Part shown: in pieces, positions 13,454-22,418 of the stretch
Layout of the letters: every line of letters begins with the position of its first letter
Numbering within the stretch: the stretch's first letter is position 1
DNA from: Kaustia mangrovi
GTDB taxonomy: Bacteria; Pseudomonadota; Alphaproteobacteria; Rhizobiales; Im1
Reading direction: 5' to 3'
DNA: 64,000 nucleotides
Assembly (NCBI RefSeq): GCF_015482775.1
Contig: NZ_CP058214.1
Span: forward strand, 372,001-436,000
Notes under the pieces: generated by a model
Told to the model about the DNA's origin: nothing
Seen by the model: the letters and a program-made list of their open reading frames with translations, nothing else
The model's database searches: none
Program-made: the position numbers and the translations under genes

Positions 13454-14884
13454 TCAGTAGTGATTCGAATGTTCTCGGGCCGTTTCCTCAAGCGAAATCT
13501 CGGGCGCCTTGTCGTTCTGTGACACGCCGAGCAGTTTGAGTTTGCGGTGCAGGGCGGAGCGTTCCATGCCGACGAAACTCGCCGTCTTGGAGATGTTCCC
13601 CCCGAACCGGGCGATCTGGGCGGTGAGATATTCGCGCTCGAAGATCTCGCGCGCCTCGCGCAGCGGCAGGGCCATAAGCTGCTCGCCGCCATGGCCGTTC
13701 ACCACCGGCGGCGAGGCCGAGCCGAGCTCGCTCGGCAGCATGCTCGCGGTGATCTCCGCCTCCGGATCGCCGCTGGCCAGAATGAGCAGCCGCTCCACAT
13801 TGTTGCGCAGCTGGCGCACATTCCCCGGCCAGTTATGGGCCTGCAGCACGGCGATCGCATCGTCGGCGATCTCACGTTCCGGCTGGCCGGAAATCAGCGA
13901 ATATTGCCGTGCGAAATGCTCAACGAGCGCGGGGATGTCCTCGCGGCGCTCCGCCAGCGCCGGCACGTGGATCGGCACGACATTCAGCCGGTGATAGAAA
14001 TCCTCCCGGAACGCCCCCTCCTCGATCAGGGCCGACAAATTCCGGCAGCTCGACGAGACGACGCGCACATCGACCTTCACGCGCTTCGCGCCGCCGACGC
14101 GCTGGAAGGTCTGGTCGACGAGGACCCGAAGGATCTTGCCCTGGGTCTCCAGCGGCATGTCGGCGACCTCGTCGATGAACAGCGTCCCGCCATGGGCCTC
14201 CTCCAGCGCGCCGATGCGCACCAGCGTGCCGCTCTCGTCCTCCACGCCGAACAGCTTCTCCTCCATCAGATCCGGCGCCATTGCGGCGGCCGGCAGGATG
14301 ATGAAGGGACCGCTGGCGCGCAGCGACGAGGCATGGAGCATGCGCGCGGCGAGCTCCTTGCCGGCACCGAGCGGGCCGGTGATGAGCACCCGGCTGTTGG
14401 TCGGCGCGACCTTCTTCAGCGACTGGTGAAGCTGGCGCATGGCGTGCGAATCGCCGACGAGCTCGGCCGCCGCACCCGCACGCTCCCTGAGCTCCTCGTT
14501 CTCACGCCGGAGCCGAGAGGCTTCGAGCGCGCGCGTGACGATCAGGATCAGCCGGTCGGTCTTGAACGGCTTCTCGATATAGTCGTAGGCGCCGCGCTTG
14601 ATGGCCGCGACCGCGGTCTCGATATTGCCGTGGCCCGAAATGATGACGATCGGCAGGTCGGGGTGGCTCTTCTGCACCACATCCAGGAGATCGAGCCCGT
14701 CGAGCTTCGACCCTTGCAGCCAGATATCGAGCACGATGAGAGACGGCCGCCGCTCCTGGATGGAATCGAGCGCGGAATCGCTGTCATGGGCGACCCTCGT
14801 CTCGAACCCCTCGTCCTCGAGTATCCCGGCGATCAGCTCGCGGATATCTGCTTCATCGTCAACGATCAGAACATCCGAGGCCAT
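13454..14884 (-). CDS. ntrX: Nitrogen/redox response regulator NtrX
   Basis: 476-residue response regulator: receiver domain (phospho-acceptor Asp53 in VLDIWL), AAA+ domain and Fis-type helix-turn-helix (EREYLTAQIARFGGNISKTASFVGMERS). The Walker A loop is GPLGAGKE. The GAFTGA loop that contacts sigma-54 is absent: the aligned region reads FGVEDESGTLVRIG. This is known for alphaproteobacterial NtrX and implies action without sigma-54. Its start overlaps the ntrY stop by 26 bases, so the pair is translationally coupled. Confidence 0.95.
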   Translation of the reverse strand: MASDVLIVDDEADIRELIAGILEDEGFETRVAHDSDSALDSIQERRPSLIVLDIWLQGSKLDGLDLLDVVQKSHPDLPIVIISGHGNIETAVAAIKRGAYDYIEKPFKTDRLILIVTRALEASRLRRENEELRERAGAAAELVGDSHAMRQLHQSLKKVAPTNSRVLITGPLGAGKELAARMLHASSLRASGPFIILPAAAMAPDLMEEKLFGVEDESGTLVRIGALEEAHGGTLFIDEVADMPLETQGKILRVLVDQTFQRVGGAKRVKVDVRVVSSSCRNLSALIEEGAFREDFYHRLNVVPIHVPALAERREDIPALVEHFARQYSLISGQPEREIADDAIAVLQAHNWPGNVRQLRNNVERLLILASGDPEAEITASMLPSELGSASPPVVNGHGGEQLMALPLREAREIFEREYLTAQIARFGGNISKTASFVGMERSALHRKLKLLGVSQNDKAPEISLEETAREHSNHY

Positions 14885-17225
14885 CTTCGGTTCCCTCTCC
14901 TTGCGTTGTCTCAGGTTCCCGGTCTGCCCCTCTCAAATCCGTTCCGACGTCTCCCTCATCGGCAGGTCTCGCGGTATCCGCCTCCGCGCGCGGCCCAACC
15001 GCCATCGGCAGGACGAGCCGGACCAGCGCGCCGCCGAGCGCCTCCGGCGCATCGTGGAGCACGATGGTGCCGCCATGCTCCTCCATGATGCGCGCAACAA
15101 TGGCAAGCCCGAGGCCGGTGCCTTTCTCGCGCGTCGTCATATAGGGCTCGAGCAGCCTCTGCCGGTTCTCGTCCGGTAGTCCGATACCGTTGTCGGCGAC
15201 ATCGATCACCGCGTGCTCGCCGTCGCGATAGAGGCTGACGACGATACGTCCCTCGATCTCCGGCTCGGCCTGGACATGGGTCTCGACGGCCTCGCGCGCG
15301 TTCTTGACCAGATTGGTGATCGCCTGGGTGACGAGACGCCGGTCGAACTCCAGATTGAGCGGCTCGTCGGGAAGCTCCAGATCGATGGCGATATCGCTGG
15401 ACGAGACGCGCTGGAGGATCGTCGCCTCCTTGACCACGGCGCCGAGGTCGCCCGGCTCGAGCAGCGCCTTCGGCATGCGCGCGAAGGACGAGAACTCGTC
15501 GATCATCCGGCCGATGTCGCCCACCTGCCGGATAATGGTGTCGGTGCATTGCTCGAAGACTTGCGTGTCGCTCTGGATCTCCTTGCCGTATTTCCGGCGC
15601 AGGCGCTCCGCGGAGAGCTGGATCGGGGTCAGCGGGTTCTTGATCTCGTGCGCGATGCGCCGGGCGATGTCCGCCCAGGCGGAATTGCGCTGTGCGGCAA
15701 CGAGCTCGGTGATGTCGTCGAAGGTCACCACATAGCCGTGGACGTCCTCGCGGGCGCGTTCCGTCGTGGCGCGCACGACGAAATGGCGCTCCTGGCCGCC
15801 GACGCGCATGTCGACCTGCCCCTCCGCCGTGCCGGACCGTTTCGACAGAGCCTTGTCGAGCACCACGGCCATATCGGGCAACACGTCCTTGAGCGCCTTG
15901 TTGGCAAGCGCGCGGTCATCGAGGCTCAGAAGTGCCAGCGCGGAGCGGTTGACGAGGGTGATGCGCCCTTCCCTGTCGAGACCGATCACGCCTGCGCTGA
16001 CGCCGGAAAGCACGGCTTCGGTGAACCGGCGGCGTTCGTCGAGCTGGACGTTGGCACTGATGAGCTCGTTGTGCTGGGAGGCGAGCTGGCTCGTCATGCG
16101 GTTGAAGGTGCGCCCGAGCGTTGCCAGATCGCCCTCGTCCTTGCGCACGGGCACCTTGACGTCGAGCTCGCCGAGCGACACCTGGCGCGCGGCGTCCACG
16201 AGCCGCATGATCGGCTGGACCAGCCTGTCGGCCACCCACAAGCCGAACCAGATGGCCGCCAGGAGGAAAATGAAGGCCACGCCCACATACATGAGGGCGA
16301 AGGTCACCTGGACGCCGTAGCGCTGGGTCTGCATGGCATCGTATTCGGCCTTGCCGGCCTCGGTGCGCTGCAGGTGTTCCACCACCTTCGGGTTCACGAG
16401 CCTGAGGACGTAGAGATAGGCGTTGTCGAAGGCCGACAGCTTCAGGATCGCGCGGATGACATTGTAGTCCTCGCCCGGTCCGATCACCACCAGCTCGCCC
16501 GTCTCCGCCTTCCGCAGGGCCTCCTCGGGCGGTGGCTGGAAGCTGATCTTGTCGTTGATGGTGACGCTCGCATCGACGCGGCGCTTGCTGGAATCGATGA
16601 TATAGGCGGCCGCCAGCCCGCGCAGCGCCACATGGGTCGCGAGCCGCCGCGTGAACTTCTGGCGGTCGCTGTCGAAATCGGCGCGCTGCCGGTTGAGGTC
16701 GGCGGCAATCGAGGCGACATCGCCGCGGATCACCTCGCTGTGCTCGGTGACATAGGCCTGCGCGACCGTGACGGCGGTATCGACGATCTGGCGCGTGCGC
16801 TCGGAGAACCAGGTGTCGAGGCCGCGATTGAGGGTGACGGTCGCGAAGACGGCGACGACGAGGGCCGGCAGCGCGGCCACCACGCCGAACAGCGACACGA
16901 TGCGGACATGGAGCCGCGCGCCCGCAATACCCTGCCGGCGCGCCTGCCAGAGCATGTAGACCTGCCAGGCGATCATGCCGGCCATGAACAGGACCAGCAG
17001 CAGGTTGACGCCGAGCAGCGCGACGATCATGTCGCGCGAGGGCTTGAGCGGGGTCAGCCCGGTGAGAATCGTATAGGTGACGAGCCCCATGAGAATCGAC
17101 ACGGCGACCACGGCGACGCCGAGCCATGTCGGCACCCGCCGCTCGTGCGGCAGGGGCTTCGCGCTGCCGCGCTGCGTGCCCACACCGCCCGCGGACATGC
17201 CCGCTGTGTCGAGACCCACACTCAT
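14859..17225 (-). CDS. ntrY: Sensor histidine kinase NtrY
   Basis: 788-residue membrane kinase. Three transmembrane segments lie in the first ~150 residues, then a periplasmic sensor of about 160 residues, a fourth segment (about 305-330), HAMP, PAS and the kinase core. The phospho-acceptor is His526 in [14 protein letters not shown]-binding boxes NLVKNARE, DNGIGLP and GTGLGLAI are present. The C-terminal ~40 residues are acidic and low-complexity. It phosphorylates NtrX. The 230-bp gap from ntrC suggests the ntrYX pair may have its own promoter. Confidence 0.94.
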   Translation of the reverse strand: MSVGLDTAGMSAGGVGTQRGSAKPLPHERRVPTWLGVAVVAVSILMGLVTYTILTGLTPLKPSRDMIVALLGVNLLLVLFMAGMIAWQVYMLWQARRQGIAGARLHVRIVSLFGVVAALPALVVAVFATVTLNRGLDTWFSERTRQIVDTAVTVAQAYVTEHSEVIRGDVASIAADLNRQRADFDSDRQKFTRRLATHVALRGLAAAYIIDSSKRRVDASVTINDKISFQPPPEEALRKAETGELVVIGPGEDYNVIRAILKLSAFDNAYLYVLRLVNPKVVEHLQRTEAGKAEYDAMQTQRYGVQVTFALMYVGVAFIFLLAAIWFGLWVADRLVQPIMRLVDAARQVSLGELDVKVPVRKDEGDLATLGRTFNRMTSQLASQHNELISANVQLDERRRFTEAVLSGVSAGVIGLDREGRITLVNRSALALLSLDDRALANKALKDVLPDMAVVLDKALSKRSGTAEGQVDMRVGGQERHFVVRATTERAREDVHGYVVTFDDITELVAAQRNSAWADIARRIAHEIKNPLTPIQLSAERLRRKYGKEIQSDTQVFEQCTDTIIRQVGDIGRMIDEFSSFARMPKALLEPGDLGAVVKEATILQRVSSSDIAIDLELPDEPLNLEFDRRLVTQAITNLVKNAREAVETHVQAEPEIEGRIVVSLYRDGEHAVIDVADNGIGLPDENRQRLLEPYMTTREKGTGLGLAIVARIMEEHGGTIVLHDAPEALGGALVRLVLPMAVGPRAEADTARPADEGDVGTDLRGADREPETTQGEGTEDGLGCSDR

Positions 17226-21240: not shown

Positions 21241-21864
21241 ATGCTCACCGCAGCGCTCATTGTCGCGGCAGGCTCCGGCCAGCGCGCCGGCGGCGATCTC
21301 CCGAAACAGTACCGGACCGTCGGCGGGCGCACCGTGCTCGCCCGCACGGCGTCTGCCTTCCTCGACGCGCCGGATGTGGATCTCGTGCAGGTCGTGATCG
21401 GCGCGGGCCACGAGGATCTCTATGAGGACGCGACAGCGGGCTTCGCCCTGCCCGCCCCGGTCACCGGCGGCGCGACGCGTCAGGCCTCGGTGCGGCTCGG
21501 CCTCGAGGCCCTGTCGGCGCGCGGCGTGGAGCGCGTGCTCATCCACGATGCGGCGCGCCCCTTTGTCGGCCCTGCCCTCATCTCGCGCGTTGTCGGCGCG
21601 CTCGGCTCCCACGAGGCGGTGCTGCCGGCAGTCGCCGTGGCCGACACGCTCAAGCGGGTCGATGGGAGGGCACGGTCTCCGCGACCGTCGACAGGACGGG
21701 CCTGTGGGCCGCACAGACGCCGCAGGGCTTCCGCTTCGAGGCCATCCGCTCGGCCCACGCCCGCGCCCATGACGAGGGCCGTTCCGATTTCACCGACGAT
21801 TCCGCCCTTGCCGAATGGGCGGGGATCCCTGTTCATGTGGTCGAGGGAGAACCTGCCAACATGA
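21241..21864 (+). CDS. ispDF: IspD domain of a frameshifted ispDF (MEP cytidylyltransferase)
   Basis: The first ~140 residues are a good Isp[21 protein letters not shown] (CTP-binding), [20 protein letters not shown] and HDAARPFV. IspD makes CDP-methylerythritol in isoprenoid synthesis. After LKRVDG (near 21664) the frame changes to unrelated Arg/Pro-rich residues and stops at 21864, while the expected continuation ([16 protein letters not shown]) is found in another plus frame and leads into IspF. One base appears missing in a G run. Corrected, the gene would span 21241-22418 and encode 392 residues, normal for fused IspDF. Confidence 0.85.
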
Positions 21865-22418
21865 AGCTGACCACCAATGCCGATCTGGAGGCGGCCGGGC
21901 GCCAGCTCGACGCGCAGGACTGGCTGCGCCGCGGCGATGTGCGCACCGGCCAGGGCTTCGACGTCCACGCCTTCGCGCCCGGCGACCACGTGATCCTGTG
22001 CGGTGTGACGATCCCGCACGAGGCGCGGCTCTCCGGCCATTCCGACGCCGATGTCGGCATGCATGCGCTGACCGACGCCATTCTGGGCGCGGTCGGGGCC
22101 GGCGATATCGGCGCGCATTTCCCGCCGAGCGATCCGCAATGGAAGGGCGCGGCGTCCGATATCTTCCTCAAGGCCGCCTGCGATCTGATCGCGGAACGCG
22201 ACGGCGTGATCGCCCATGCCGACATCACGCTCATCTGCGAGGCGCCGAAGATCCGCCCCCATGTGGAGGCCATGCGCGAGACGCTCGCGCGCATCATGGG
22301 AATCGATGCGGCGCGCGTCAGCGTGAAGGCGACGACCAGCGAGCAGCTCGGCTTCACAGGCCGGCGCGAGGGCATCGCCGCTCTTGCCGCCGCCACCGTG
22401 CGCCTGCCCTTTGCCTGA
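21837..22418 (+). CDS. ispDF: IspF domain of the frameshifted ispDF (MECDP synthase)
   Basis: This frame carries the rest of the fused enzyme. IspF converts CDP-ME-2-phosphate to 2-C-methylerythritol 2,4-cyclodiphosphate. It begins at GQGFDVHAF (metal Asp/His) and continues with [17 protein letters not shown], the [13 protein letters not shown] loop and [16 protein letters not shown]. The 5' limit given (a GTG) is only the first start codon in this frame; the same frame encodes the IspD C-terminal half from about 21665, so I do not believe 21837 is a true start. MKLTT is probably the end of the IspD domain. Confidence 0.85.

Follow-up and report, generated by a model that had tools for sequence, protein, structure and literature searches.

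Bifunctional IspDF enzymes (NCBIfam NF006899/PRK09382; Pfam IspD PF01128 plus YgbB PF02542) are composed of an IspD domain followed by an IspF domain. The same order is found on the + strand of the locus described here, which belongs to the window, i.e., the whole 64,000-nucleotide stretch of the Kaustia mangrovi contig NZ_CP058214.1 (positions 372,001 to 436,000) that was analyzed. Two pieces of the locus match successive positions 7-143 and 146-381 of the 387 in the NF006899 profile. Unlike in the described family, the reading frame changes between them, and each piece alone (125.1 and 352 bits) scores below the family cut-off of 417 bits. The published sequence therefore lacks the single open reading frame of a bifunctional IspDF, the frame changing at 21664-21666; in our view, this is a fault of the sequence and not of the gene. 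Every title matching a literature search for ispDF with a frameshift concerns Helicobacter pylori.

A second set of relevant precedents comes from long-read assemblies, for which errors that fragment genes have been reported in general (PMC12007338). The Streptomyces albus SM254 genome (73% G+C), assembled with HGAP v3 at 262x and treated with Quiver to QV>50, still held 205 indels before it was corrected with Illumina reads, and almost all of these lay in runs of G or C (PMC4832174). A counter-example is the PacBio-only assembly of Streptococcus pyogenes, reported as a 100% match (PMC7363880). K. mangrovi R1DC25 (CP058214), a member of the family Parvibaculaceae (PMC8289202; NCBI taxonomy), was sequenced by PacBio RS2 and assembled with HGAP.3, and the words Illumina, polish, and Quiver have no occurrence in the main text of the genome paper (PMC8289202). 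As far as that text describes it, the assembly combines error-prone sequencing (PacBio RS2 plus HGAP.3) with no short-read correction. The G+C content of the window is 67.2%, and that published for R1DC25 is 67.3 mol% (PMC8289202); we infer that the genome analyzed here is that of this strain.

The reading favored here, at a probability of roughly 95%, is that the break in ispDF is a residual single-base deletion in the PacBio RS2/HGAP.3 assembly. The gene would be an ordinary alphaproteobacterial ispDF of the MEP pathway, in which the IspD cytidylyltransferase is fused to the IspF cyclodiphosphate synthase, and one base of a short G run near 21664-21666 would be missing from the published sequence. 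This base is presumably present in the DNA, and the living strain most likely has an intact gene that encodes a single bifunctional protein some 392 residues long.

Location and structure of the frame break

The ispDF gene starts at 21241 (+), where an open reading frame of 207 amino acids begins (21241-21864, +). Direct reading and the translation of this frame both give IspD up to ...ADTLKRVDG, followed by Arg/Pro-rich residues until the TGA at 21862-21864. A second plus frame is open from 21666 to a stop at 22418 and contains the remainder of IspD together with the entire IspF domain. The switch occurs at 21664-21666, where the published sequence is one base short of what the frame needs; the Pfam matches locate the junction at the first GGG of GATGGGAGGGC, between 21663 and 21666. 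The features are listed in Table 1 together with the other split genes of this genome.

The IspD profile is split at about 138 and 140, the first frame covering 2-138 and the second 140/141-215/216. The two pieces score 115.4 and 80.4 bits against a family cut-off of 27, and because both lie so far above it, the frame break is not a chance arrangement. The IspF domain is a YgbB match over profile positions 2-154 of 155 in the second frame, and the tail of the first frame after GGG 21664-21666 has no Pfam IspD match. Joined as one, the two pieces amount to 392 residues. The initial annotation, made from the letters alone, had described an IspD frame that is good to LKRVDG and then runs through Arg/Pro-rich residues to a stop at 21864, an IspD continuation with a complete IspF in another plus frame, and a single 392-residue IspDF upon addition of one base; this description holds in all three parts. 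No promoter or terminator was detected when 21600-21900 was scanned for them. In the published sequence, the ATGA at 21861-21864 could restart translation of IspF.

Table 1. Features of the ispDF locus (window positions) and further K. mangrovi genes with a same-direction split (positions within their own stretches)
Feature	Position	Strand	Evidence
5′ part of ispDF, IspD residues 1-142	21241..21666	+	ORF; Pfam IspD 2-138
GGG run, frame-change site, one base too few	21664..21666	+	Direct reading; Pfam; alignment of relatives
Out-of-frame tail of the first ORF, no IspD match, ends in TGA 21862-21864	21667..21864	+	
3′ part of the IspD domain, second frame; conserved Arg, TPQ, and Lys present	21666..21899	+	Pfam IspD 141-216
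IspF domain and stop codon	21942..22418	+	Pfam YgbB 2-154 of 155
MgtC/DUF4010 gene, same-direction split	L123:4906-6150		Pfam MgtC 1-36 and 56-120
4HBT_2 thioesterase, same-direction split	L124:634-1059		Pfam 4HBT_2 2-30 and 42-121
Glutathione S-transferase, same-direction split	L124:1076-1774		Pfam GST_N_3 5-29 and 43-75
Sarcosine-oxidase-alpha-like gene with GCV_T domain, same-direction split	L133:12085-15039		Pfam GCV_T 2-158 and 173-254
NAD(P)H-hydrate dehydratase with YjeF_N domain, same-direction split	L141:10120-11610		Pfam Carb_kinase 6-122 and 125-224

Comparison with relatives

IspD was searched for in 41 genomes, namely this one and 40 relatives, and the 30 relatives with returned loci were aligned. 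Left out of the alignment were seven relatives with near-full-length IspD and three (G005, G011, and G028) with only partial or weak IspD matches. Among the genomes listed, this is the only one in which two strong pieces of IspD lie in different frames. The reading frame is open through the site in 30/30 aligned relatives, 28 of which have a one-frame product of at least 385 residues counted from the IspD match, and in each of 80 further named loci the site is spanned by a single tblastn match in one frame. A split shared by relatives, which the initial annotation had named as an outcome that would overturn its reading, is accordingly absent at the site from both sets (0/30 aligned, 0/80 named). 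The genus search returned no second Kaustia genome.

Beyond the break, the residues identical in all 30 relatives (R152, Q159, T160, P161, Q162, F164, H173, T185, D186, D187, K209, T211, and D215) are all kept. Those among them that characterize the C-terminal part of IspD in bifunctional IspDF (R152, Q159-Q162, D186, D187, K209, and T211) are likewise in place. Downstream of the break, identity exceeds the upstream value in 19 of the 30 relatives and falls short of it in 11; in the three same-family genomes, the values before and after are 0.57 and 0.61 (L011), 0.60 and 0.61 (L018), and 0.46 and 0.60 (L023). There is no sign of drift, because the invariant residues are retained and identity after the break is not reduced overall. 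Judged by this conservation, the second frame has been under selection as IspD up to the very recent past or remains so today.

Other frame breaks in the same genome

A codon-usage scan, trained on known genes and retrained for each genome, covered 483,901 bases, i.e., the window and 21 further stretches. A strict test gave eight tight same-strand frame breaks, including ispDF, and all eight require one base more (or two fewer). A looser test gave 32 same-strand junctions, of which 12 were inspected, nine of them down to the surrounding bases; all nine show the same shift direction and have three or more consecutive G or C within 30 bases. Nearness to such runs is weak evidence, as they are common (1,554 of exactly three in the window).

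Pfam matches on both sides support five of the eight strict breaks (IspD, MgtC, GST_N_3, Carb_kinase, and GCV_T). The 4HBT_2 break was found by the loose test only and lies outside the strict eight, yet it has Pfam support as well, so that same-direction breaks with such support are found in five unrelated genes besides ispDF. Two of the halves fall below the Pfam cut-off, namely the second of MgtC (21.3 vs 31.4 bits) and the first of 4HBT_2 (20.4 vs 25.5 bits). A cyclase-like gene on L123 has a Pfam match on one side of its junction only, and the junctions on L132 and L142 lack two-sided Pfam support. The junction at 13478-17217 of the window was rejected as a frame break; by eye, it separates two ordinary neighbors that are NtrY/NtrX-like.

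Two genomes of the same family served as controls under the same test. G002 has no break in 400,000 bases, and G001 has four in 400,000 bases, all also in the missing-one direction. Inspection by eye assigns one of the latter (L182) to an ordinary gene pair, and the other three look real, being apparent one-base losses at L168:2112-3164, L172:15442-17592, and L177:628-2160; the G001 assembly may carry similar errors. When single-base changes were introduced by script, 59/110 losses and 52/110 gains were detected in the stretches of K. mangrovi, compared to 34/98 losses and 21/98 gains in G002. Since losses and gains are detected about equally in its own stretches, the eight-to-zero direction was not made by the test. 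The zero of G002 is somewhat weaker than it appears because the test is less sensitive there. Compared with G002, K. mangrovi has a clear excess of breaks; compared with G001, the excess is moderate.

Isoprenoid supply and alternative explanations

Besides the two pieces, the genome contains six further IspD-profile matches. A second ispD, which the initial annotation had suggested looking for, was not found among them: the two over the cut-off are a molybdenum-cofactor-cytidylyltransferase (MocA)-like protein and GlmU (NCBIfam), and the rest are below it. The matches to dxr, ispE, ispF, ispG, and ispH have no internal stop. By eye, a 725-codon open frame around dxr arises from chance readthrough, its frame being that of a cdsA-like gene upstream. 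As a separate observation, the GlmU match at L005:1138-2811 ends at profile position 408 of 453, and the terminal part may likewise be absent or frame-shifted.

The deletion could be real, that is, a fresh ispD null tolerated through IPP from elsewhere or present in part of the culture, but this is improbable. One HMG-CoA reductase gene is present, which speaks for this reading, but this sole match is of the degradative type (TIGR00532, 421.3 bits vs a cut-off of 259.95). It adjoins an HMG-CoA lyase and a TRAP large permease (L120:479-4057), and given its type and neighbors the reductase most likely breaks mevalonate down, the cluster as a whole being a likely mevalonate-breakdown cluster. A backup mevalonate route was discarded on the same grounds and because neither HMG-CoA synthase (PF01154) nor mevalonate-diphosphate decarboxylase (MVD, TIGR01240) has a match in the genome. 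The side chain of Q-10 requires isoprenoid precursors. The quinone of strain R1DC25 is reported as 100% Q-10 (PMC8289202), and as no second ispD or mevalonate route was found, IspD must work, which fits an intact gene. A mutation in ispD would, moreover, leave the five unrelated genes split in the same direction unexplained.

Decoding offers another way to keep both the published base count and the enzyme: the ribosome would slip back one base at GATGGGAGGGC by an unrecognized programmed -1 frameshift, perhaps stimulated by GGGAGGG, and full IspDF would still be made. The direction needed is -1, a common type of programmed frameshift in bacteria, and the GGGAGGG at the break is Shine-Dalgarno-like. 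Against this, direct reading gives no X_XXY_YYZ slippery heptamer in frame across 21649-21675 (CTC AAG CGG GTC GAT GGG AGG GCA CGG), and the downstream RNA at 21664-21744 folds no better than its shuffles (MFE z-score 0.74, in a calculation that does not cover pseudoknots). The shift is also absent in relatives, and the unrelated genes with the same one-base loss would need explaining too, several of them having to be recoded in the same direction; recoding is therefore very improbable. Hardly credible is a true division into separate IspD and IspF, in which IspF restarts at the ATG of 21861. That codon (21861-21863) does overlap the TGA stop in an ATGA arrangement and lies upstream of the IspF domain, but the residue it encodes still belongs to the IspD match, whose end is at about 21899, and IspD would lose its last third, including the residues identical in 30/30 relatives. 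Against the loss of a base in assembly stands the length of the run, which at GGG is short for a homopolymer error.

Significance and comparison with other long-read assemblies

Of the three readings offered by the initial annotation, the base error is strongly supported, by the same-direction breaks elsewhere, the PacBio-only assembly, and the intact relatives. The other two fared poorly: a real frameshift is at odds with relatives that lack the split and with Q-10 in a strain for which no second ispD or mevalonate route was found, and recoding with the missing heptamer, the ordinary fold, and the unshifted relatives. The ispDF break is almost certainly nothing that the organism does but one base lost in a long-read-only assembly.

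Its importance is solely that of a caution, as tens of one-base deletions seem to be present in the public genome of the type strain. Outside the window, seven automatic breaks were found in 420 kb, which corresponds to about 77 over 4.63 Mb if the rate holds; the true total is perhaps twice that number because the test finds about half of the introduced losses. Annotation would turn genes with such deletions into false pseudogenes, in this case in an essential pathway.

Among known systems, the case differs from Streptomyces albus SM254, whose errors had short-read confirmation. It resembles PacBio-only, G+C-rich assemblies with residual deletions, as this 67% G+C genome, assembled with HGAP.3, has breaks in the missing-one direction in several unrelated genes.
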